Below are positions 25,234 through 42,655 of a stretch of 64,000 nucleotides of DNA, in pieces. Numbering within the stretch: position 1 is the stretch's first letter; every line of letters begins with the position of its first letter. Source of the stretch: Azotobacter vinelandii CA (GTDB lineage Bacteria; Pseudomonadota; Gammaproteobacteria; Pseudomonadales; Pseudomonadaceae). Made by a program: the position numbers and the translations under genes. The DNA is taken from NCBI RefSeq assembly GCF_000380335.1, contig NC_021149.1, forward strand, positions 1,054,001 through 1,118,000, given 5' to 3'. The notes below the pieces were generated by a model. That model saw nothing but the letters and a program-made list of their open reading frames with translations. It made no database searches and had not been told where the DNA came from.

Positions 25234-26510
25234 TGTACAGACCGGAGACCTAGGTGACAGGTGTGCGGGGACATGGTTGACACTTTCGGCAGTGACCTGC
25301 CGAGCCAACGACCATGCCCTGGAACATTCAAGACACCATGAACCTACGAGAAGAATTTGTCCTGCTGGCCCAGCAGGAAGGCAGCAACCGCCGTGAGTTG
25401 TGCCGACGCTTCGGGATCAGCCCGCAGACTGCGTACAAGTGGCTGGTCCGATATGAACAGCAAGGGCGTGCCGGCCTGGCCGACCTTTCCAGGCGCCCCA
25501 AGACCAGCCCACACCTGACATCGCCCAGTCTGGAAGCCCGGGTGGTGGAGCTGCGCCAGGCCCATCCGTGCTGGGGTGGACGTAAGCTGAGTCGGCGCTT
25601 GCAAGACCTGGGGCATCCAGCCTTGGCGCCAAGCACCATCACCTCTATCCTGCACCGTCACGGACTGATCGATCCCCTGGCCTCAGAAGCGGCCGTGCCC
25701 TGGAAACGCTTCGAGCACGCGGCACCCAACGATCTGTGGCAAATGGATTTCAAAGGGTATTTCCAGACATCCGAAGGCCCCTGTCATCCACTGACCGTGC
25801 TGGACGACCACTCGCGTTTCAACCTGGGCCTGCGGGCCTGCGCCTGTCAGCGCCATGGCACCGTGCAGGGTGAACTGATCGGCATCTTCGAGCGCTATGG
25901 CTTGCCGGTACGGATCAACACGGACAACGGCGCCCCTTGGGGTGCCTCGCGCCAACCGGGGCAATTGACCGAACTTGCCATCTGGCTGATCCGGTTGGGC
26001 ATCCGCCTGAGCTTCAGCCGTCCTCGTCACCCGCAAACCAACGGCAAGGATGAACGCTTTCACCGCTCACTCAAGGCCGAAGTCCTCAATGGCCGCAGCT
26101 TCCACACCCTGCACCAGGCCCAGGAAGCCTTCGACAACTGGCGTGTGGTCTACAACCACCAGCGACCCCACGAAGCCCTTCGGATGGTCACGCCTGTCAC
26201 ACGCTACCGAGTCAGCCCACGGACTTATCCTGTACAACTGCCCACCATTGAATACGGGCCGGACGATACCGTGGTGACAGTGAAGGCGCTTGGGGCGATC
26301 AGGTTCAAAGGACGCAGCTACAAACTCTCCAATCCACTGCGCGACCAGCCGGTGGCCATCCGTCCGAGCGGCGATACCGACGGCTTATACGACGTGTACT
26401 TCGTCCATCACAAGCTGGTGCAGATTGACCTGCGGGAGTTAGCCAAAACTGACGCATAATCCGTCAACCATGTCCCCGCACATGTGTCCACCATGTCTCC
26501 GGTCCGTACA
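25234..26510 (+). mobile_element. IS481-family insertion sequence, complete
   Basis: A 1277-bp element. The left end TGTACAGACCGGAGAC matches the inverse of the right end, TGTACGGACCGGAGAC. The similarity continues inwards to GTGCGGGGACATGGTTGAC on both sides, giving imperfect terminal inverted repeats of nearly 50 bp. One transposase gene fills the interior and exact 6-bp duplications flank it, so it looks recent and intact. Confidence 0.92.
25314..26459 (+). CDS. IS481-family DDE transposase
   Basis: A 381-residue transposase. The N-terminal helix-turn-helix (about residues 12-60) contains RRELCRRFGISPQTAYKWL. The integrase-like catalytic core has Asp145 in LWQMDFKG, Asp204 in INTDNGAPWG and Glu247 in TNGKDERFHRS, a complete DDE triad. 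A C-terminal domain follows (about 290-381). Starting at 25314 gives MPWNIQD, matching the MPW start common in this family; MNLREEF at 25338 is an alternative. The frame is uninterrupted and all catalytic residues are present, so the element is probably active. Confidence 0.95.
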   Translation: MPWNIQDTMNLREEFVLLAQQEGSNRRELCRRFGISPQTAYKWLVRYEQQGRAGLADLSRRPKTSPHLTSPSLEARVVELRQAHPCWGGRKLSRRLQDLGHPALAPSTITSILHRHGLIDPLASEAAVPWKRFEHAAPNDLWQMDFKGYFQTSEGPCHPLTVLDDHSRFNLGLRACACQRHGTVQGELIGIFERYGLPVRINTDNGAPWGASRQPGQLTELAIWLIRLGIRLSFSRPRHPQTNGKDERFHRSLKAEVLNGRSFHTLHQAQEAFDNWRVVYNHQRPHEALRMVTPVTRYRVSPRTYPVQLPTIEYGPDDTVVTVKALGAIRFKGRSYKLSNPLRDQPVAIRPSGDTDGLYDVYFVHHKLVQIDLRELAKTDA

Positions 26511-29661: not shown

Positions 29662-29804
29662 AGAGCCTGTTCACGATCTGCTGCGCGTTGGCCCTGCTGC
29701 GTTAAAAACAGGCTCGAAATGCTCATTTACCCTACGTAAACTCCGCTTCCTCGCCTGTTTTTGCCTTGCATGGCTCTAGCTCGCTGGATCGTGAACAGGG
29801 CTCT
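29662..29804. repeat. MITE-like element at the end of the carboxylase operon
   Basis: AGAGCCTGTTCACGATC at 29662-29678 is matched by the inverse GATCGTGAACAGGGCTCT at 29787-29804 (one extra G). The roughly 143-bp interior includes GTAAACTCCGCTTCCTCGCC. Its right end touches the stop codon (29804-29806) of the minus-strand gene beside it. The 250 bp between the GST-like gene and this repeat hold no recognisable gene. Confidence 0.65.
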
Positions 29805-30670
29805 CAGCCGCGCAGCCGGGCGAGACTGTCCAGGACGAACTCCGGCTGCTGATCGGCGGGAATCTCGACGAAGTAGAACTGCCCCTGATCGAGGGTCGGC
29901 AAGTCGCCGCCTTGCCACAGGACGGCGCCCACATCCACGCCGCTCGATGCCGGCCGCTGCAGCCGGAGATCCGCCGAGATCAGCGCATCGAACTCGGCCA
30001 GCGCCGGCGACCCCAGGTCGGCGTCGCCGCGCGGCCGCCAGGCCAGCGACCAGCGGTAGTGCCTGGCCACGTTGATCAGCGGGCGGTAGTGTTCGAGGTC
30101 GGTCGTTCCCGGGCGGTCATCGGCGGGATGCTCCTCCAGCAGCACCCCGCCCACCGGCTGGGCGGACAGGGCGCGCAGCAGGTCCGCCATGTACATGGCG
30201 GCATCCTCGATCGCGTCCGGGTTGGTTTCGATCCCGGAGCGTCCGGCCAGCGCGTTGGCGTGCAGCAGCCAGTGCCTGGGCGACGGCATGGCCAGCACCA
30301 GCGGCGTCCGCCCGCGCAGGTTGGCGACCACCGCCTCGACGACCTCGGCGAGCAGCCGGCGCGGCTCATCCTGCTCCAGCAGCTTGCGCAGCGGGAAGGA
30401 CGCGCGCCGTTTCGAGCCCAGCTCCGCCACCGCTTCCGGGTGGCGGGACAGCCAGGAGTCGAATAGCTCGCCGACCTCCAGCACCGCCGCGTCCGGGCGC
30501 AGCAGGCCCTGGGCCTGGCTGAAATAGGCCAGGTATTGCGCCGCGCCCGTCCAGGGATCGCCGTCCGCGCCCAACAGCAGCCGTCGGGTGTAGGCCGAAG
30601 CCTTCAGCCACACCCGCAGGCCTCCGCCGCCCGTGCCGCCGGGCAGATCCTCGGCGAGATGCCGGCTCAT
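29804..30670 (-). CDS. Fifth protein of the carboxylase operon (Apc5/epsilon-like)
   Basis: A 288-residue soluble protein with no recognised catalytic motif. It starts MSRHLAEDLPGGTGGGGLRV, continues with a helical region (SFPLRKLLEQDEPRRLLAEV) and ends PEFVLDSLARLRG. The start overlaps the HyuB-like stop by ATGA and has GGGAGGCGAG upstream, so it is translationally coupled to the carboxylase subunit gene. In the acetophenone carboxylase operon a fifth gene of about this size encodes the loosely attached epsilon subunit needed for activity. By position and size this is its likely counterpart. The terminal codon abuts a MITE-like repeat. Confidence 0.7.
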   Translation of the reverse strand: MSRHLAEDLPGGTGGGGLRVWLKASAYTRRLLLGADGDPWTGAAQYLAYFSQAQGLLRPDAAVLEVGELFDSWLSRHPEAVAELGSKRRASFPLRKLLEQDEPRRLLAEVVEAVVANLRGRTPLVLAMPSPRHWLLHANALAGRSGIETNPDAIEDAAMYMADLLRALSAQPVGGVLLEEHPADDRPGTTDLEHYRPLINVARHYRWSLAWRPRGDADLGSPALAEFDALISADLRLQRPASSGVDVGAVLWQGGDLPTLDQGQFYFVEIPADQQPEFVLDSLARLRG

Positions 30671-32943
30671 TGCTTCTCGCCTCCCAGCGCGTCGAGTGCC
30701 GCCAGGCGCGCTTCGAGTTCGGCGATGCGCACGTCCTTCGGGTTGGGCATGTAGTTGGGCTTGGGCTCGCTGCCCGTGCGGAACCGCTCGGCGCTGCCCA
30801 TGTAGAGCTTGTCGATATCCTCGCCCCAACAGCCGAAGTACTGCAGATGGGCGGGTGGCGTCGGCTTGTTCCAGGTCTTGACGAACTCGGCGTAGGGCAC
30901 GCCACGGGCCAGGCGCGCCTTGCGCTCGGCATCGCGGGCGGTGGCGGTGGCCTGGTGATCGATCGCCAGCGTCGCCGGGTCGAACTTGACCTTGTACAGG
31001 CGCTCGGCGACGCCCGGCGAGATCAGCCCCTCCTCGATGTCGCGGACGACGCCCGCCGGATCGCGCTCCAGCAGGTCGCCGTAACCGGCGCCGGCACCCT
31101 GCGAAATCATGAACAGCTCGCCGCGTTTGGAAATCTCGAAGCCCATGCCCATGTGGTGGGTGGTGTAGCTCGCCCCTTCGAAGGGACGTTCGTTCATGAG
31201 TTCCTCGATCGAGTGGCGGAATTTTTCCGGCGTTTCGAGCAGCACGTCGTACACGTCCACGCCCCTGATCTTGGCGAGCGGGTAGGTGCCGCAGGCGTAG
31301 CCGCCGAACAGGCCCTGCATCGGCGGGATCTTGGCGCCCTGGCAGGTGGTCATGAAGCCCCACTGATCGCTGTCCTTGGTCGCCACCATCATGGTGTAGC
31401 CCTGGCCGCCGCGATACTTGCCCGGCGCGATGGCGTCGCGGGTCATCTTCTTCGACACCAGTTGCAGGAAGGGCACGTCCTCCTCGTTCAGCTCCTGCTC
31501 GCCGATGTCCGCCATGGTGGCGAAGATTGGTGCCAGGGCGTGCTCGCCGTCGCGGTCCACCGTGGCGCCGGCGCCCATGCCGTTCAGGTCGGCGCAGAGG
31601 TTGCCGAGGGTTTCGCCGTGCTGGCTCACCCCGCCCCAGATGAAGGTGTTGATCATGTTGAAGGTCGGCGCATGCACCTTCGTGTACTTCTCCGGGCAGC
31701 TGTAGAGGAACTTCGCCACCGCGTGCTGGCCGGCGGTGAAGCCGGTGAAGATCGACATCAGGCTCTGCGAGTTCGGCGCGTCGTAGGAGCAGTTCATGAT
31801 CGAGTGCGGGTCGGTGATCACCTCGATCGGCGCGAAGGCCGCCTGGCCGCGCGGCAGGTCCGGCCACACGTAGCACAGGAAGAGTTGCGAGAGCATGCCC
31901 TTGAGGCCGGCGACTATGGTGTTGGTCGGCCGGTTGGTGAATTCCGGGGCCGAGCCGCGGAAGTCGAAGATCAGCCGGTCGCCGGTCTTGGTGAGCTTGC
32001 AGTTGACCTTCACCACGCAGTTCTCGCGCAGGGTCGAGTCCTGGATGACGTAGGTGCGCACCGTCATGTCCGGCCATTCGCTGACGCGGCGCTTCACTTC
32101 GGTGCGGACGTTTTCCATGGTCAGGCGCAGGGTCGAGACCAGCGCGTCCGGGCCGTCGGTCCCGAGCGTCTCCACGATGCGCTGCTTGATGCGCAGGCAG
32201 GCGTAGAGTTTGACCTTCATGTCCTCGTACTGCAGCTTGGGTTCACGCACCGAGTTCTGCAGGAAGGTCAGCAGGTCGCGCTTGATCTCGTAGTTCTCGA
32301 CGACCTTGAAGGGGCACATCTTCAGCCCTTCGTCGCTCGGGCTCTCGGCCATGGACGGCATGCCGCCCGGCTCGATCGCGCCGTTCTCGCCCTCGTGCAC
32401 CGTCGAGGCCACCCAGCACACCAGTTTCCCGTCGTGGAAGATCGGCAGGATCATGCTCTGGTCGGTGTTGTGCACGTTGCCGTAGCGGGAGTCGTTGTGG
32501 ATGAAGCCGTCGCCCTCGCGCACCCCCACGGTGGGGTCGTTCAGCCAGTTCTTGATGATGAACTTGATGGGGTGGTGCACCAGGGCGGAGAACAGCAGCA
32601 CGCCGCCGGCGCTGGCGATGGCGAGGTCGCCCGAGGCCGAGTACACCCCGGTGATGACGTCGCCCCACTTGGCGCCGGGCGCCGCGCCCATCTGCTCGAC
32701 CATTTCGTAGCCTTCGTCGCAGCCGGCCTGGATGCGGTCGCGGATCTTGGCGATGGTGTGGGCGTCGCTCATCCTGCCGATGGCTTCGTCCTCGACCGCG
32801 CTGCGCGGCATCAGGTCGTGGTTCTGCATGATCTCCGGGTCCGGCCCGAGGAACAGCGTGGTGTCGTTGAGGAACTTCTCGATCAGTGCCAGTTCTTCGC
32901 TGCTCGGCGTCTTTGTCTTCGCGGGGGTGGCGATCTTGTTCAT
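30667..32943 (-). CDS. HyuB-like (hydantoinase B/oxoprolinase) subunit of an ATP-dependent ketone carboxylase
   Basis: A 758-residue subunit of the HyuB/AcxB family, which carries the carboxylation site in acetone and acetophenone carboxylases. Typical features are GDVITGVYSASGDLAIASAGG near residue 95 (as GDVITGVYSASGDLAIASA), DGFIHNDSRYGNVHNTDQ, FDFRGSAPEFTNRPTNT and DLNGMGAGATVDRDGEHA. The HN/HNTD residues could bind metal. The C-terminus has a short helical tail (RIAELEARLAALDALGG). It follows the second HyuA-like gene by 43 bp and overlaps the next gene. The substrate (acetone, butanone, acetophenone or other ketone) is not shown by sequence alone. Confidence 0.88.
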   Translation of the reverse strand: MNKIATPAKTKTPSSEELALIEKFLNDTTLFLGPDPEIMQNHDLMPRSAVEDEAIGRMSDAHTIAKIRDRIQAGCDEGYEMVEQMGAAPGAKWGDVITGVYSASGDLAIASAGGVLLFSALVHHPIKFIIKNWLNDPTVGVREGDGFIHNDSRYGNVHNTDQSMILPIFHDGKLVCWVASTVHEGENGAIEPGGMPSMAESPSDEGLKMCPFKVVENYEIKRDLLTFLQNSVREPKLQYEDMKVKLYACLRIKQRIVETLGTDGPDALVSTLRLTMENVRTEVKRRVSEWPDMTVRTYVIQDSTLRENCVVKVNCKLTKTGDRLIFDFRGSAPEFTNRPTNTIVAGLKGMLSQLFLCYVWPDLPRGQAAFAPIEVITDPHSIMNCSYDAPNSQSLMSIFTGFTAGQHAVAKFLYSCPEKYTKVHAPTFNMINTFIWGGVSQHGETLGNLCADLNGMGAGATVDRDGEHALAPIFATMADIGEQELNEEDVPFLQLVSKKMTRDAIAPGKYRGGQGYTMMVATKDSDQWGFMTTCQGAKIPPMQGLFGGYACGTYPLAKIRGVDVYDVLLETPEKFRHSIEELMNERPFEGASYTTHHMGMGFEISKRGELFMISQGAGAGYGDLLERDPAGVVRDIEEGLISPGVAERLYKVKFDPATLAIDHQATATARDAERKARLARGVPYAEFVKTWNKPTPPAHLQYFGCWGEDIDKLYMGSAERFRTGSEPKPNYMPNPKDVRIAELEARLAALDALGGEKQ

Positions 32944-32986
32944 GTCCGATCCTGTCTGAAAGTGAAAGAGGGTCGTGGCGCGCCGT

Positions 32987-35122
32987 TCAGGCGCGCAGGA
33001 ACCAGGAGGCGCCCTGGCGGGCGGCGACGAAGTTCCAGCCCGGATTGACCAGGAAGGTGGTCACTTCGGAGGCGATGATCGCGGGGCCGGCGATCTGCAT
33101 CCCCGGCTCGATCGCCGCCCGGCTCCATACCGGCGTCTCGAAGGCGCCCGCGTGGCCGACGAAGTGGCAGGTGCGGGTGGACGACGGCGGTGGCGGCGAC
33201 TTGCGCCGTTCGGCCGGCAGCGGCTTGATGTCCTCGAACTGCACCGTCTCGTGGCGGACGAACGCGGCGACCCGGATGGTGTTGATGCGGATGCCGGCCT
33301 CCGGCGCCTGCGAACCCTTGCCGAAGCGCTTGCCGTAGTCCTCGGAGAACTGCTCGATGATCGCCAGCACGTCCGCCGGTCCCCGCACCTCGTGCCGGGG
33401 GATGACCGCGGTGGTCTGCACCAACTGGTTGCCGTAGCGCATGTCCAGTTCGAGGCTGTGGTGGATGTCTTCGCGGGCCATGCCCTGGCGCAGCAGGTCC
33501 TGGGTGCCGCGCTCCTTCAGGTCGGCGACGATGTCGTTGAAGCGCACGTAGTCGTCGAACAGGCGGCGGCTGTTCGAGTCGTACAACACCATGTACAGCG
33601 AGGTTTCGTGGATGTGGAGCTGGTGCAGGTTGCCGGCGCCGACCGCCGAGAACACCGAGCTGAACGGCGGCGCGAGGATCTTGTCGATGCTCAGGTTCTG
33701 CGCGATGCCGCAGCAGTGCAGCGGTCCGTTGCCGCCGTAGGCCAGCATGGTGAAATCCTTGGGATCGTAGCCGCGGGCGCGCAGCTCGGTGAACAGCCCG
33801 TTGGCCATGTTGTCGTCCACCTTCTCGCGGATCAGCAGCGCGGCCTCGATGACCGAGCAGTCGAGCTCGTCGCACAGCGTGTCCTCGACCGCCGCCGCCG
33901 CCCGGCGCGGATTCAGCGGGATCGATCCGCCGGCGTAGTTCTGCGGGTCCAGGTAGCCCAGCAGCAGGTCGGCGTCGGTCACCGTCGGGCGCATGCCGCC
34001 GCGGTCGTAGCAGGCCGGGCCGGGGTCGGAGCCGGCGGATTCGGGGCCGCATTTCACCGTGTCGTACATGCGGTCGTAGCTGGCGATGGAGCCGCCGCCG
34101 GAACCCAGGGTCACCAAGTGCACCATGGGCACCGACACCAGCCAGCGGTCGATCACCGGGTTGAAGTCGTAGTGCTTGATGCCGCCCTCGACGACGATGC
34201 CGATGTCGTAGCTGGTGCCGCCCATGTCGGTCGCCACCACGTTGCCCAGGCCGCACTGCATGGCCAGGTGCTCGGAGGCGCCGATGCCGGAAACCGGTCC
34301 GGAGTGGATGGTCTGCAGGGCATCCGTCGAGTTGAGCTGGGCCATGCCGCCGGAGTTGTGGATGACCAGCATCGGCTGCTCGTAGCGGTGGGCGCGCAGG
34401 TTCTGCTCCAGCGCGGACAGGGCGTGGTACATGGTCGAGTGCAGGTAGCCGTCGACGATCGCCGAACTCGCCCGCACGTACTCGCCCTTGCGGCCCGCCA
34501 CCTGGTGGGACAGCACCACCGGAATCGCCCCCAGCAGATGGGATGGGTACTCTTCGAGGAGGATTTCCTCGATGCGCTGCTCGTGCGCCGGATTGACCAC
34601 CGAGTTGACCAGCGCCACCACGATGATTTCGGCGCCGCGGTCCACCAGTTCGCGGATCTGGGCGCGCACGTCGTTTTCGTCGAGCGGCATGACCAGGTCG
34701 CCCTGGAAGTCCACGCGCTCGCGCACCCCGCGGATCATGTGCGGCAGCACCAGCGGGTCGGGGCGCTGGGCGTTGGGCAGGTCCTGCTGGCCGAGGATGT
34801 CCAGCCCTTCGCCGTAGCCGCGGGCCCGCGACAGCGGCACCGTGGCCTCGTAGCCGGCGGTGACCAGCATGCCGATCCGCGGGCCCTTGTGTTCGATCAG
34901 GGCATTGGTGCCCAGCGTGGTGGCGTAGCGGACGGAGTCCACCTGCGCAAGGATTTCCTCGAGCTCCAGGCCGAGGTCGCGGTAGGCTTTGCCCAGCGCC
35001 TCGTTGAAGCCCAGGGCGAGGTTGTGATGGGTGGTCAGGGCCTTGGCCTCGATGTACTTGCCATCCCAGACCACGAAACAATCGGTGAAGGTGCCACCGA
35101 TATCGACTGAAACGCGCCTCAT
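32987..35122 (-). CDS. HyuA-like ATPase subunit (larger paralogue) of the ketone carboxylase
   Basis: A 711-residue protein of the hydantoinase A/AcxA family that uses ATP to activate substrate or bicarbonate. The N-terminal ASKHA motif is RVSVDIGGTFTDCFVVWDG, the second phosphate loop is VVATDMGGTSYDIGIV, and GGGSIASYD plus GPESAGSDPGPACYDRGG complete the nucleotide site. YGGNGPLHCCGIAQ is the usual C-terminal motif. CGAGGAGACA precedes the ATG. This is the paralogue closer in length to AcxA of acetone carboxylase (about 715 residues by recollection). The operon has a second, shorter HyuA-like gene at 35602. Confidence 0.9.
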   Translation of the reverse strand: MRRVSVDIGGTFTDCFVVWDGKYIEAKALTTHHNLALGFNEALGKAYRDLGLELEEILAQVDSVRYATTLGTNALIEHKGPRIGMLVTAGYEATVPLSRARGYGEGLDILGQQDLPNAQRPDPLVLPHMIRGVRERVDFQGDLVMPLDENDVRAQIRELVDRGAEIIVVALVNSVVNPAHEQRIEEILLEEYPSHLLGAIPVVLSHQVAGRKGEYVRASSAIVDGYLHSTMYHALSALEQNLRAHRYEQPMLVIHNSGGMAQLNSTDALQTIHSGPVSGIGASEHLAMQCGLGNVVATDMGGTSYDIGIVVEGGIKHYDFNPVIDRWLVSVPMVHLVTLGSGGGSIASYDRMYDTVKCGPESAGSDPGPACYDRGGMRPTVTDADLLLGYLDPQNYAGGSIPLNPRRAAAAVEDTLCDELDCSVIEAALLIREKVDDNMANGLFTELRARGYDPKDFTMLAYGGNGPLHCCGIAQNLSIDKILAPPFSSVFSAVGAGNLHQLHIHETSLYMVLYDSNSRRLFDDYVRFNDIVADLKERGTQDLLRQGMAREDIHHSLELDMRYGNQLVQTTAVIPRHEVRGPADVLAIIEQFSEDYGKRFGKGSQAPEAGIRINTIRVAAFVRHETVQFEDIKPLPAERRKSPPPPSSTRTCHFVGHAGAFETPVWSRAAIEPGMQIAGPAIIASEVTTFLVNPGWNFVAARQGASWFLRA

Positions 35123-35199
35123 TTGTTGTCTCCTCGTTGTTCTCGGCGCCGGCGCCACCCGGAACGTGGCGGCGTTGGGAACCGGCGGTCGACGGTGGT

Positions 35200-35598
35200 T
35201 CAGTGGCTGTGGCCCTGGTCGGCCAGCACTTCGGGGCCGACGACCGGCTCCGCGAGTTGTCCGCGTCCGGCCCACTGCGCGCGCAGGACCGGCAGGTCCG
35301 GCTGCATGTCGTGCAGCGGCGGATGGCCGGGGATGGCGTATTCGGTCTCGACCATGGTTCCGCAGTGCGGGCAGTAGTATTCGAGGATGCGCACCCACTC
35401 CGGGTCGGGGCAGAAGGTGTAGCGGTATTTGTCGGGGTCGAGGATCGGCGGGTGGATCTCGCGCGGATCGCGGTCGTGGACGAGCATGCCCTCCTTGTAG
35501 CCCTTGGTCGCCGGGCCGATCTCGTGGTCGCACACCCGGCACTCCCACTTTTCCGAATCGAGATCGATGCGCAGGTATTCGGTCATCGGAACTTTCAT
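35200..35598 (-). CDS. Small CxxC (zinc-type) carboxylase subunit, acetone carboxylase gamma family
   Basis: A 132-residue protein with two Cys pairs, WECRVCDHE (about residues 19-27) and YYCPHCGTMVE (about 74-84). They are placed to bind one zinc ion, and the C-terminus ends in a His-rich QGHSH. PGHPPLHDMQPDLP and the spacing fit the acetone carboxylase gamma/acetophenone carboxylase beta family, whose small subunit contacts the large catalytic subunits. It starts 3 bp after the first HyuA-like stop. Apc2-type subunits are about this length, while AcxC of acetone carboxylase is nearer 165 residues (from memory). Confidence 0.85.
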   Translation of the reverse strand: MKVPMTEYLRIDLDSEKWECRVCDHEIGPATKGYKEGMLVHDRDPREIHPPILDPDKYRYTFCPDPEWVRILEYYCPHCGTMVETEYAIPGHPPLHDMQPDLPVLRAQWAGRGQLAEPVVGPEVLADQGHSH

Positions 35599-35601
35599 TT
35601 T

Positions 35602-37539
35602 TCAGCCCTTCCTGTTCAGCATGATGTCGCCCGCGTCACTGATGACGAAGGTCCAGCCATCGAGCACGTGGCACGTGAAGAAGTCTTCTTCGAGAATCGC
35701 GGGCCCGGCCGCGTGGTCGCCCGGCGCCAGTTCGGCCAGGCGATAGACCGGGATGTCGATGCGTCCCTGGCAGCGGGTCAGCACCTGGCGCATGCCGGCG
35801 GCGCCGGCGGCCTGGCTTGCGGCGAAGCGCGCGGTCCTGCCGGCTTCGCTGCGCAGCGGCTTGACGGCGCGCAGGCCCAGCTCCACCGCCCTGGCCCGCG
35901 CCAGTTCGGCCGGGAAAGCGGCGCCGTCGGCGACCGGGAAGCGCAGTTCGCGGCCGTCTTCCAGCTCGCCCGCCAGCCAGGCCTGCACTTCGTACTGACC
36001 TTCGGCGAAGCCCTCGGCGAACATGTCGCGCGCCGCCTTGCGGCCGAGTTCGGCCAACGCCTCGTCCACGCCCCTGGCGCTGCGCTCGTCGAGCGCGACC
36101 GCGTAACGCTGCGAGATATCGCAGGCGCCGATGCCGAAGGCGCTGAACACCGCCGCCAGCTTGGGCACGGCGACCCGGCCGATGCCGGCCTTCTCCGCCA
36201 CGCCGCAGGCGTTGAGCGGCCCCGCGCCGCCGAAGGCGAGCATCACCGTGTCCTTCGATATCCGGGTGAAGCGGTGCAACTCGGCGGCGATCTTCTCTTC
36301 GTAGGCGTTCGCCATCTGCAGCAGCGCCTCGTCGAGCGCGAGGCCCAGCGGCTCGGCGATGTTGACGCTGACCGCGCTGGCGGCGCGGTCCAGGTCCAGC
36401 GCCATGCCGCCGCCGAAGTAGGACGCGGGGTCGAAGATGCCGCGCAGCAGGCTGGCGTCGGTGATCGTCGCCTCCTTGCCGCCACGCCCGAAGGCGGCCG
36501 GTCCCGGCACCGCGCCCACGCTTTCCGGGCCGATCGCGATGCGCTTGTCGACCACCTTGAAGATCGAACTGCCGCCCGCGCCGGCGCTGACGATCTCGCA
36601 CAGCGGGAAGGACACGCTGATGCCCTCGACGTGGCCGCGCTGCACCTCGGCGACCACGCCGTCGAGGCACTGGGCGATGTCGGTGGTGGTGCCGCCGACG
36701 TCGATGGCGACCATGTCGGACAGGCCGTAGAGCCTGGAGAAGGACTTCATGCCCTCCATGCCGCCGCGCGGGCCTGAGCTGTAGGTCTTGATCGCCACCG
36801 TCTTGGCGACGCGCGAGGCGTCGCCGTCGTTGCGGAAGATCAGCAGCGGATTCTTGGTGCGATAGGCGCGCAGGCGATTCTCGGCGTTGAACAGGAATGC
36901 CTCGGTCGCCGGATGCAGGAAGGAATTGATCAGCGCCGTCCAGGTACGCCGCAGCGGATCGCGATCCGTCGTCAGGTCGCTGCCGTAGAGCACCGGCACC
37001 GCGCCCAGCAGGTGCCGCGGGTACTTGCGCAGCACCACCTTGCGGAAAGCCTCCTCGATCTCGCGGAAGGCGCTGCCGCCGAAGCTCACCACCAGGCGGT
37101 TGGCGCCGGTGGCGGTGAGCCGGTTGATCGCCCTCACCACCTCGACGTCGGCATCCGCGCCGCGCACGGCGACGGCGTCGAGGAACTCCACGCGGTCGCC
37201 GACCAGCGCTTCGTATACCTCCGGGTCGTGTTCGGCCAGGCGCGCCGGCAGTTCGCGGTCGCCGGCGTCGACGATGAGGCCGAGCCGTGGTCCCTTGCGT
37301 TCGCAGATGGCGTTGGTGCCCTGCGTCGTCGAATAGCGGATGAGGTCGACCTCTTCGAGCAGCCGCGCTACGTCCGGCTTGTCGTAGAGCACGCCGGACG
37401 CCTTCTGCAGGCCTTCGAAGAAACACTTGCTCAGGTCGTAAGGCGTGGTCAGCACCTTGGTTTTCCTGATTCCGTCATCGGTCATGATGCATATATCGGT
37501 GAGCGTGCCACCGTTATCGATGTTTATCTGTAATGTCAT
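35602..37539 (-). CDS. HyuA-like ATPase subunit (shorter paralogue) of the ketone carboxylase
   Basis: A 645-residue hydantoinase A-family protein, first gene of the five-gene operon. The phosphate loop reads INIDNGGTLTDICIM, with Asn in place of the usual Ile before GG. The second is MVAIDVGGTTTDIAQ. GAGGSSIFKVVD, GPESVGAVPGPAAFGRGG and FGGAGPLNACGVAE follow in family order. GGAGGAAA precedes the start at 37539. Two different HyuA subunits in one operon is the acetophenone-carboxylase arrangement, whereas acetone carboxylases have only one. A sigma-54 promoter lies about 150 bp upstream. Confidence 0.9.
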   Translation of the reverse strand: MTLQINIDNGGTLTDICIMTDDGIRKTKVLTTPYDLSKCFFEGLQKASGVLYDKPDVARLLEEVDLIRYSTTQGTNAICERKGPRLGLIVDAGDRELPARLAEHDPEVYEALVGDRVEFLDAVAVRGADADVEVVRAINRLTATGANRLVVSFGGSAFREIEEAFRKVVLRKYPRHLLGAVPVLYGSDLTTDRDPLRRTWTALINSFLHPATEAFLFNAENRLRAYRTKNPLLIFRNDGDASRVAKTVAIKTYSSGPRGGMEGMKSFSRLYGLSDMVAIDVGGTTTDIAQCLDGVVAEVQRGHVEGISVSFPLCEIVSAGAGGSSIFKVVDKRIAIGPESVGAVPGPAAFGRGGKEATITDASLLRGIFDPASYFGGGMALDLDRAASAVSVNIAEPLGLALDEALLQMANAYEEKIAAELHRFTRISKDTVMLAFGGAGPLNACGVAEKAGIGRVAVPKLAAVFSAFGIGACDISQRYAVALDERSARGVDEALAELGRKAARDMFAEGFAEGQYEVQAWLAGELEDGRELRFPVADGAAFPAELARARAVELGLRAVKPLRSEAGRTARFAASQAAGAAGMRQVLTRCQGRIDIPVYRLAELAPGDHAAGPAILEEDFFTCHVLDGWTFVISDAGDIMLNRKG

Positions 37540-37690: not shown

Positions 37691-37705
37691 GCAACGGCTG
37701 TGCCA
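37691..37705 (-). promoter_or_regulatory. Sigma-54 (-24/-12) promoter of the carboxylase operon
   Basis: On the minus strand TGGCAC-AGCCG-TTGC, an exact match to the sigma-54 consensus TGGCAC-N5-TTGC. Transcription would start near 37679, giving a leader of about 140 nt. The activator gene encoded just upstream is of the sigma-54-dependent class. Confidence 0.85.
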
Positions 37706-40549: not shown

Positions 40550-41803
40550 ATGCCCAGTCCCGTTGCGGAGCGCCCCGTCGGGCGCATTCCGGTCAGCCTG
40601 CTCACCGGCTTTCTCGGCGCAGGCAAGACGACCCTGTTGAAGCAGTTGATGAAGGACCCCGCGATGGCGGGCAGCGTGCTGTTGATCAACGAGTTCGGCG
40701 AGGTCGGTATCGACCATCACCTGGTCGACAGGCTCGACGAGCACACCCTGCTGCTCGACTCCGGGTGCATCTGCTGCAGCGTGCAGGGCGATCTGGTGCG
40801 GGCCCTGCGGGAACTCCACCAGCGCTTTTCCCGGCGGGAAATCCCCGCGCTTTCCCGCGTGCTCATCGAGACGACCGGGCTCGCCGACCCGGTTCCCCTC
40901 GTCGGTACGCTGATGGAGGAGCGCTTCGTCGCGGCGCGCTACCTGTGCGACGGCGTGCTGACGGTCGTCGACGCGGAACACGGTCTCGATCAGTTGGGCC
41001 GCTATCGCGAGGCCGTGCGCCAGGTAGCCATGGCCGACCGCCTGCTGATCGGCAAGGGCGACCTTTGCGATGCCGCGACCCGGACGCGGCTGGAGGCGAA
41101 ACTCGCCGCTCTCAACCCCACGGCGCTCCGTCTGGAGGTGCGCCACGGCAAGGTGCCGGCGGATCGGCTGTTCGGCGGCGGCATCTACGCCGCCGCCGGA
41201 AAGTCGCCCGACGTCGCCCGCTGGCTGATGGACGAGCGCGGACGCTATCGGCCGCTGGCGGCGCCGGCCGGCCTGGCGCATGGAGCGGCCGTGCAGCGGC
41301 GCCTGCACGTCGAGCGGCATGGCGACGGCGTCTCGTCCTTCGTCGTGCGCTTCGAGGCGCCGGTCCCGTGGCCGGGTTTCGCGGTGTCGCTCGGGCGCAT
41401 CCTGGCGGCGCACGGGCAACGGCTGCTGCGGGTGAAGGGCTTGATGGCGGTGGCCGGCGATCCACAGCCGCATGTCATCCAGTGCGTGCAGGACGCGGCC
41501 TATCCGCCCGTACGGCTCCCGGCCTGGCCCGCCGATGGCGCTTTCGCCGACCGCTGCGGGCGATTGGTGTTCATCGCGCGGGATCTCGAGCCGGCGGCGG
41601 TCGAGAGCATCCGCGAGGCGCTGACTGACCTTCCCGGCACGGCAGCGGCCATGCGCATGGCCGCTGCCCGGCCCCTGCTGCCCACGCGCTGCTGGCTCGG
41701 CCGGCACATGCCGGTCGGCTCCGAGCGGGACATCGAACTCGATGCCTGGTTCGTCCGCCCGAAGCGTTTCGCGAAACGCCCCGTCATCGGCACGTGCGAC
41801 TGA
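40550..41803 (+). CDS. G3E-family GTPase metallochaperone (CobW/YjiA-like)
   Basis: A 417-residue GTPase of the COG0523/G3E family that binds and delivers transition metals. Walker A is [16 protein letters not shown] near residue 20. The family metal-binding motif GCICCSV (CxCC) is at about residue 75. ETTGLADPVPLV supplies the switch region, and IGKGDLCD replaces the usual NKxD guanine motif. The C-terminal CobW_C domain extends to the end. GGAGG precedes the ATG. Its position divergent from the activator and its sigma-54 promoter suggest it serves the carboxylase, whose relatives contain Zn, Mn or Fe; this is inference. Confidence 0.88.
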   Translation: MPSPVAERPVGRIPVSLLTGFLGAGKTTLLKQLMKDPAMAGSVLLINEFGEVGIDHHLVDRLDEHTLLLDSGCICCSVQGDLVRALRELHQRFSRREIPALSRVLIETTGLADPVPLVGTLMEERFVAARYLCDGVLTVVDAEHGLDQLGRYREAVRQVAMADRLLIGKGDLCDAATRTRLEAKLAALNPTALRLEVRHGKVPADRLFGGGIYAAAGKSPDVARWLMDERGRYRPLAAPAGLAHGAAVQRRLHVERHGDGVSSFVVRFEAPVPWPGFAVSLGRILAAHGQRLLRVKGLMAVAGDPQPHVIQCVQDAAYPPVRLPAWPADGAFADRCGRLVFIARDLEPAAVESIREALTDLPGTAAAMRMAAARPLLPTRCWLGRHMPVGSERDIELDAWFVRPKRFAKRPVIGTCD

Positions 41804-41830: not shown

Positions 41831-42655
41831 TCAGGCGCGCTCCAGCTCCCCGGCAGCGAACGGCGGCGGGCGTCGTGGCCAGTCCAGCGCCAGTTTCTCG
41901 AACTCGCGCGCCAGCAGGCTGGCGACCAGCAGGTCGCGCAGCCAGCGGCGGTCGGCCGGGATCACGTACCAGGGCGCGGCGGGACTGTGGCTGGCGGCCA
42001 GCACCGCGGCCCAGCGCGCCTGGCGCTCGGCGAACCGGCGGTGCGCGGCGAGATCGCCGGCGGCCAGCTTCCAGCGCTTGTCCGGGCGCTCCAGGCGTCG
42101 GCGCAGGCGACGTTTCTGCTCGGCGCGGGATATCTGCAGGTAGCACTTGAGCGGCTGGATGCCGTGGGCGACGAGGCGCGCCTCGAACGCCTCGATCCGC
42201 GCCAGGCGGCCGGGCAGCTCGGCGTCGCCGCACAGGCCGTCCAGCGGGTCGCTGACCAGCGCCTCGTAATGGCTGCGGTCGAACACCCCGAGTTGGCCGG
42301 GCGCGGGCAGGCGCCGGCGGTAGCGCCAGAGGAAGTCGTGGCGGCGCTCGCCGGCATCCGGCGGCTGGAAGTCGTGGACCGCCAGGGCGAGCGGATCGAG
42401 GCCGGCCAGCACACGGCGGATCACGCCATCCTTGCCGGAACAGTCCGGTCCCTGCAGGACCAGCAGCAGGGCGCTGCGGCGGTTGGCGCGCAGCATAGTC
42501 GAGCGCCGGCGCAGCCAGTCCCGGAGCGCCGCCAGGCGGACGGCGGCATCGGCCTTGTCCAGTCCGAAGCGGCGTGCCGGATCGCCGTCCAGCGGCGCTT
42601 CCGGGGTGCACAGGCAGGCGTCGAGGAGCGCATCGGGCAGGCGCGGCACGGGCAT
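41831..42655 (-). CDS. PPK2-family polyphosphate kinase
   Basis: A 274-residue polyphosphate-dependent nucleotide kinase. Walker A is VLQGPDCSGKDGVIRRV (about residues 66-82), lid/Walker B features are GVFDRSHYEALV and the Arg-rich AEQKRRLRRRLERPDKRWKL. The helical HxxxxW/RxxR end is APWYVIPADRRWLRDLLVA. The PPK2 family transfers phosphate between polyphosphate and ADP, AMP or GDP; the sequence alone does not fix the nucleotide specificity. It begins 13 bp after the yejK stop, so the two are probably one operon. GAGGA lies directly against the ATG, an unusually short spacing. Confidence 0.88.
   Translation of the reverse strand: MPVPRLPDALLDACLCTPEAPLDGDPARRFGLDKADAAVRLAALRDWLRRRSTMLRANRRSALLLVLQGPDCSGKDGVIRRVLAGLDPLALAVHDFQPPDAGERRHDFLWRYRRRLPAPGQLGVFDRSHYEALVSDPLDGLCGDAELPGRLARIEAFEARLVAHGIQPLKCYLQISRAEQKRRLRRRLERPDKRWKLAAGDLAAHRRFAERQARWAAVLAASHSPAAPWYVIPADRRWLRDLLVASLLAREFEKLALDWPRRPPPFAAGELERA

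Follow-up and report, generated by a model that had tools for sequence, protein, structure and literature searches.

A five-gene operon in Azotobacter vinelandii CA probably encodes a carboxylase of acetophenone carboxylase (Apc) architecture that acts on a ketone other than acetone, is controlled by sigma-54 and aided by a CobW metallochaperone, and yields a 3-oxoacid that would be activated with coenzyme A (CoA) and cleaved by thiolysis. The operon lies in a stretch of 64,000 nucleotides (contig NC_021149.1, positions 1,054,001 to 1,118,000), referred to as a whole as the window. The architecture is already known, and the clade appears to be unstudied. The genes are listed in order of transcription.

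35602..37539, minus strand: apcA-like, alpha' subunit, 645 amino acids (aa), HyuA/ASKHA kinase-type (open reading frame (ORF), Pfam, PDB match, tree)
35200..35598, minus strand: apcB-like, gamma subunit, 132 aa, four-cysteine zinc site (Pfam Acetone_carb_G, 134 bits)
32987..35122, minus strand: apcC-like, alpha subunit, 711 aa, HyuA/ASKHA kinase-type (Pfam, PDB match, tree)
30667..32943, minus strand: apcD-like, beta subunit, 758 aa, HyuB-like, Asp-His-Asp-His metal site (Pfam, PDB match)
29804..30670, minus strand: apcE-like, epsilon subunit, 288 aa, predicted uroporphyrinogen decarboxylase (UROD)-like barrel (AlphaFold model and Foldseek)

Each ORF runs from ATG to TGA without an internal stop; the starts of the apcA-like gene and of the regulator gene described below were set with the help of homologues. 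The genes are separated by 3, 77 and 43 bp, followed by a 4-bp overlap between beta and epsilon, and Pfam recognizes two Hydantoinase_A proteins, one Acetone_carb_G and one Hydantoinase_B. These coordinates and matches confirm what had been described from the letters alone (the sequence-only reading): five same-strand genes at 29804-37539, of these sizes and closely spaced. That reading had also proposed an acetophenone-carboxylase-like architecture, which holds for the gene order, the phylogenies of both HyuA-type subunits, the zinc cysteines and the epsilon fold. The same order recurs in other bacteria, so the cluster is more than a chance arrangement. It is exactly apcABCDE. In the accessible part of the 2017 Apc structure paper, the order apcABCD(E) is diagnostic of Apc, setting it apart from acetone carboxylase (Acx) and hydantoinase; the position in the tree, the lengths of the subunits and a fingerprint serve as further criteria.

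Relatives were collected by scanning named genomes with a gamma alignment, which gave at least 593 stretches, at least 578 of them encoding relatives. Counts refer to the best 80 loci, several of which are incomplete at contig ends; subunits A to E are present in 76, 79, 78, 76 and 66 of these, respectively. Among the 65 loci with a complete beta gene and at least 1.2 kb following it, 63 carry the E gene after D, and it is missing in L103 and L140.

In sequence matches to the PDB, Apc chains outscored Acx for all four core subunits: alpha' (292 bits to its best chain, 5L9W_b, the Apc alpha', versus 147), alpha (550 bits to 5L9W_B versus 298), beta (290 bits to 5L9W_A versus 134) and gamma (103 bits to 5L9W_C versus 46 for Acx gamma). 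Alpha carries a fingerprint match, RERVDFQG at 134, in which the lower-case fingerprint positions vary; no match to the fingerprint was found in alpha'. The ERxDxxG positions of alpha are invariant in 76 of 76 relatives, except for D138 (67/76). The ATP motif positions are likewise conserved, in 73 of 73 relatives for alpha' and in 76 of 76 for alpha, with one position at 75/76.

A tree of 66 sequences was constructed, with a single row for Acx and five for hydantoinase-like proteins; the wrongly framed hydantoinase rows HYD_L007 and HYD_L012 were left out, as was locus L015, which had no usable ORF. Window alpha, 5L9W_B and their kin split from the Acx and hydantoinase-like rows with a support of 96/95, and all alpha' rows, including 5L9W_b, were united (99/96). 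Both HyuA-type subunits, which the sequence-only reading had asked to be compared with Acx and Apc, group with the 5L9W kinase subunits, and neither groups with the hydantoinase/oxoprolinase family. In each half of the tree the window subunit falls in a 25-row clade (100/100) apart from the 5L9W lineage. The operon had been taken as a possible new member of the family; by its sequences it does belong to the Apc branch, as a separate clade rather than as one more member or as Apc proper. The alpha and alpha' halves branch almost as mirror images, which indicates that the alpha/alpha' duplication is older than these clades.

The records examined label the large subunits as hydantoinase/oxoprolinase family, and public annotation would have the operon encode a hydantoinase, an oxoprolinase or a lactamase that has additional subunits. 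The kinase-type alpha and HyuB-type beta are indeed common to ATP-dependent hydantoinase, 5-oxoprolinase and caprolactamase, and alpha reaches 425 bits of 1000 against the caprolactamase model. However, these enzymes have two subunits, lack gamma, alpha' and epsilon, and occupy another branch of the tree; published hydantoinase-type clusters, in the parts of the sources available, consist of two genes without gamma. The Pfam family of gamma is specific to acetone carboxylase gamma, both kinase subunits sit elsewhere in the tree, and each of the three large subunits scored better against Apc chains than against those of hydantoinase and oxoprolinase. We rejected a hydantoinase or lactamase on the subunit set and the tree, and consider the chance of such an identity very small.

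The small subunit resembles that of Apc. The double CxxC noted from the sequence corresponds to C20/C23 and C76/C79, in addition to C63, and these four cysteines are invariant in 79 of 79 relatives. At 132 aa it lacks the N-terminal extension of Acx gamma (168 aa), in agreement with the Apc length criterion. In beta, the metal ligands D95, H158, D161 and H183 are invariant in 70 of 70 relatives, and in the alignment the first ligand is Asp, as in Apc. The equivalent site of acetone carboxylase (Glu89, His150, Asp153, His175) is, in the accessible text on that enzyme, the proposed catalytic manganese site, whereas in the available portion of the 2017 Apc paper the preferred site of physiological zinc is formed by the gamma cysteines, and its role is seen as structural.

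Epsilon matched no family in Pfam or NCBIfam and had no convincing PDB match by sequence. When ten epsilon-type proteins were scanned, three of them, all encoded in other Apc-type operons (L060, L063 and L065), passed the Pfam URO-D cut-off, and the window epsilon and six others did not. The AlphaFold model of epsilon, built from 53 sequences, had a mean pLDDT of 92.8 and a pTM of 0.92. In a Foldseek search with this model, ranks 1-3 by E-value were chains of 9FOU (ApcE; best E 3.2e-8, TM 0.62, 16% identity), followed by 16 UROD chains (best E 4.8e-7, TM 0.67). Because the 9FOU chains come first, we call the fifth gene product an ApcE homologue by its modelled fold. In the DSSP string of the model, three conserved residues (Y27 and P131, both invariant, and E180, nearly so) lie just after strands 1, 3 and 4, a location where barrel enzymes keep their active sites; this is suggestive only. 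The open-access papers searched included none on 9FOU and none joining ApcE with UROD; papers naming ApcE with acetophenone predate the 9FOU release.

A third lineage of Apc-type operons (L060 13374-18820 and L068 6601-12015) has an extra gene between gamma and alpha, with a Pfam URO-D match in L060 and none in L068.

With Apc of Aromatoleum aromaticum EbN1 (ApcABCDE; 5L9W core, 9FOU ApcE) the operon shares its gene order, two ASKHA kinase subunits, the four-cysteine gamma, the beta Asp-His-Asp-His site and a UROD-like fifth subunit, as would be expected of a true acetophenone carboxylase. That identity is nevertheless highly improbable, and we rejected it on the equivalog cut-offs and the separate clade. 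Scores against the NCBIfam acetophenone carboxylase equivalogs NF042960, NF042974, NF042975 and NF042976 were 336.9/1250, 120.8/250, 587.8/1500 and 325.5/1500, missing all four cut-offs, with the large subunits at about a quarter to 40% of theirs. These cut-offs are strict in themselves, because L063 and L065, nearer relatives of 5L9W, fall below them too. In addition, the window beta is about 70 aa longer, the operon contains no benzoylacetate-CoA ligase gene, and it has a sigma-54 activator and CobW, whereas a two-component system is the reported regulator of A. aromaticum apc in the available part of the source. Annotation of flanking genes between 25314 and 43682 turned up no CoA-ligase gene. 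The missed cut-offs and the lack of a flanking ligase make acetophenone an unlikely substrate.

The same genome encodes a canonical AcxABC with its regulator at C1:2.084-2.091 Mb, its kinase subunit scoring 1159 bits to 5M45_B. Compared with the AcxABC enzymes (Xanthobacter 5SVB/5SVC, Aromatoleum 5M45 and this copy), the operon has homologous alpha, beta and gamma subunits. AcxABC differs in having three genes (acxABC), one kinase subunit and, in the available text, a gamma of 168 aa; in the alignment its first metal ligand is Glu, where the operon has Asp. We rejected an AcxABC identity for the operon: it has five genes and two kinase subunits and does not group with Acx, and the real Acx of the genome lies elsewhere. 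The presence of this separate AcxABC makes acetone less likely as the substrate. The sequence-only reading had left acetone, another alkyl ketone or an aromatic ketone open; this choice is now narrowed, most likely to an alkyl or other ketone that AcxABC does not serve.

The operon could instead be a second, isofunctional acetone carboxylase that acts under different conditions (acetone concentration, metal supply or oxygen level), which we regard as rather unlikely. The adjacent regulator is 51% identical to the AcoR-type sigma-54 regulator beside acxABC, and the 3-oxoacid CoA-transferase pair directly after epsilon in Azotobacter beijerinckii would suit acetoacetate. Among 27 isolate genomes with the operon, 15 lack an Acx-type gamma and could use the operon for acetone, so that acetone may be the substrate in these; the other 12, like the genome of the window, also keep canonical Acx. 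The acyl-CoA ligases and SCP2-type thiolases that adjoin the operon in some relatives fit acids other than acetoacetate.

Genes for such downstream steps were counted in 53 loci of at least 18 kb: a thiolase is present in 24, a ligase in 17, ScoAB in 8, a ligase or ScoAB in 22, a thiolase plus a ligase or ScoAB in 18, and any of the three in 28. In A. vinelandii CA they are unlinked. A ScoAB-thiolase set at 5.25 Mb includes a ScoA 94% identical to the operon-linked A. beijerinckii copy, and a thiolase-ligase pair at 2.22 Mb is 57-58% identical to a linked Zoogloea pair. A supposedly broken acyl-CoA ligase at C1:2222905-2224347 was rejected: the TAG is the gene's own stop, and a 502-aa ORF ends at the same base.

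The module extends beyond the five genes of the sequence-only reading, which had not included the upstream sigma-54 activator and the divergent CobW GTPase. The following features lie upstream of the operon.

37691..37705, minus strand: strict sigma-54 promoter element TGGCAC-N5-TTGC upstream of the apcA-like gene (motif scan)
38082..~40100, minus strand: GAF - sigma-54 activation - Fis activator of AcoR/AcxR type, start codon inferred (Pfam)
40550..41803, plus strand: CobW-family GTPase, likely metallochaperone, divergent from the activator (Pfam)

The promoter element, 166 bp before apcA, is the sole strict occurrence in the window. Within 400 bp upstream of apcA a strict site is present in 22 of 73 loci, against 0.45 expected from 42 strict sites in 1.37 Mb. 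CobW and the activator are found in 45 and 41 of the best 80 loci, respectively (E <=1e-12). At the 45 loci of at least 20 kb, CobW is present in 33 and the activator (>250 bits) in 25, never without CobW. The open-access papers searched included none linking a ketone carboxylase with CobW, and no relevant one on acetone carboxylase in A. vinelandii.

A full-length RpoN paralogue lies beside the activator and CobW at L102 17241-18539 and at nine further alphaproteobacterial loci; there a sigma factor appears to come with the operon itself. A ZIP-family metal transporter follows the apcE-like gene directly or nearby at L078 15915-16688 and at seven further loci, mostly in Zoogloea, Hydrogenophaga and Acidovorax.

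Several observations weigh against the assignment as a sigma-54-controlled, Apc-type carboxylase for a ketone other than acetone. The TM-score of the epsilon model to UROD equals or exceeds that to ApcE. The tree holds just one Acx row, on a long branch. Beta, at 758 aa, exceeds Apc beta (684 aa in 5L9W_A) in length and comes nearer to Acx (776 aa), departing from the Apc length criterion, which in the accessible part of the 2017 paper is a soft, 'approximate' one. The strict sigma-54 site is missing in 51 of the 73 loci, 9 of which have a TGGCAT variant and 42 neither. The window itself and 25 of the 53 long loci lack an adjacent thiolase, ligase or ScoAB, and acetone may be the substrate in the 15 isolates without an Acx-type gamma.

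The clade is widespread, with examples in Neorhizobium petrolearium, A. beijerinckii, Zoogloea, Xanthobacter and Porticoccus, in Proteobacteria mostly accompanied by CobW and the sigma-54 activator. A plasmid record of N. petrolearium contains ABCDE, CoA-transferase B and A, a sigma-54 factor, a GTP-binding protein and a sigma-54 activator. Rhodococcus jostii RHA1 carries all five genes on pRHL2 in a more distant form (beta 53% identical). The flanks vary among relatives, with a CoA-transferase, ligase, thiolase, ZIP transporter (5 of the 53 long loci), RpoN paralogue (10) or RND/DUF1302-type protein (10). Outer-membrane Phenol_MetA_deg, RND and DUF1302/DUF1329 neighbours, inconstant among loci, may point to the import of a hydrophobic compound. 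The genes that precede apcA in Burkholderiales and in some alphaproteobacterial loci (L088, L101, L102, L112) gave no substrate clue; on a visual check of their first residues they looked housekeeping or unrelated.

In a sample of 198 genomes of the family, own genome included, an alpha' orthologue occurs in 3, all Azotobacter (88-100% identity), and a fourth Azotobacter lacks it; ten other alpha' matches have 28-32% identity. The closest kin outside the genus among the best 80 loci are Rhodocyclaceae, which, together with a nearby transposase, suggests that the operon may have been gained horizontally. This IS481-family transposase (25314-26459; 301 bits versus a cut-off of 224) lies about 3.3 kb downstream of the operon and is in line with recent gain or rearrangement. 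The same side carries a GST-like protein and an OprD porin; the other carries PPK2 and a nucleoid-associated protein. The PPK2 gene (41831-42496) is convergent with the CobW gene and has no known link to the operon. The operon is directly followed by an intergenic element (29663-29800) that is flanked by a palindrome, a 13-nt perfect inverted repeat with its arms at 29666-29678 and 29787-29799; the element has 11 further copies in the genome, partial to near-full, and resembles a small dispersed repeat.

We propose that the enzyme is an ATP-dependent, biotin-independent ketone carboxylase. By analogy with Apc, whose division of labour between alpha and alpha' comes from the structure paper, alpha would phosphorylate the enol form of the ketone to a phosphoenol, and alpha' would phosphorylate bicarbonate to carboxyphosphate. 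Beta would act as a scaffold with the conserved Asp-His-Asp-His metal site, gamma as a zinc clamp, and epsilon, the UROD-like barrel, would join the core at the carboxylation step. The 3-oxoacid would then be activated by a 3-oxoacid CoA-transferase or an acyl-CoA ligase and cleaved by a thiolase, A. vinelandii-like strains encoding such genes elsewhere. The adjacent sigma-54 activator would turn on transcription, and the CobW GTPase would supply or guard the metal. Carboxylation would make the ketone usable as food.

In the records examined, parts of the operon are labelled as hydantoinase/oxoprolinase family, acetone carboxylase gamma and hypothetical protein, and among the matches listed in the open-access literature on acetophenone carboxylase and the clade genera, none treats the clade. 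The clade, its partners and its substrate thus apparently lack an assignment in these records and this literature. Because the examined records name parts of the operon hydantoinase and hypothetical protein, the present assignment corrects a labelling problem. As of the 2017 structure paper, in its accessible part, the Apc branch had a single characterized enzyme; the clade adds many relatives to this branch, including one in the easily grown genus Azotobacter. A three-gene Acx and a five-gene Apc-type enzyme in one cell offer a natural comparison of ketone carboxylation routes. The clade also ties Apc-type carboxylases to a metallochaperone GTPase and sigma-54 control, and makes the roles of the beta metal site and of epsilon testable. 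Speculatively, and perhaps against the odds, it may form a distinct and widespread ketone-carboxylase class, filed as hydantoinases, that takes a ketone no assigned carboxylase serves; its metal partners (CobW and, in some loci, ZIP) may reveal the beta Asp-His-Asp-His site as a catalytic metal centre, like that of acetone carboxylase, across the whole Apc branch, with the epsilon barrel sharing the C-C bond step. If true, such a centre would contradict the zinc site preferred in the accessible part of the Apc structure paper.

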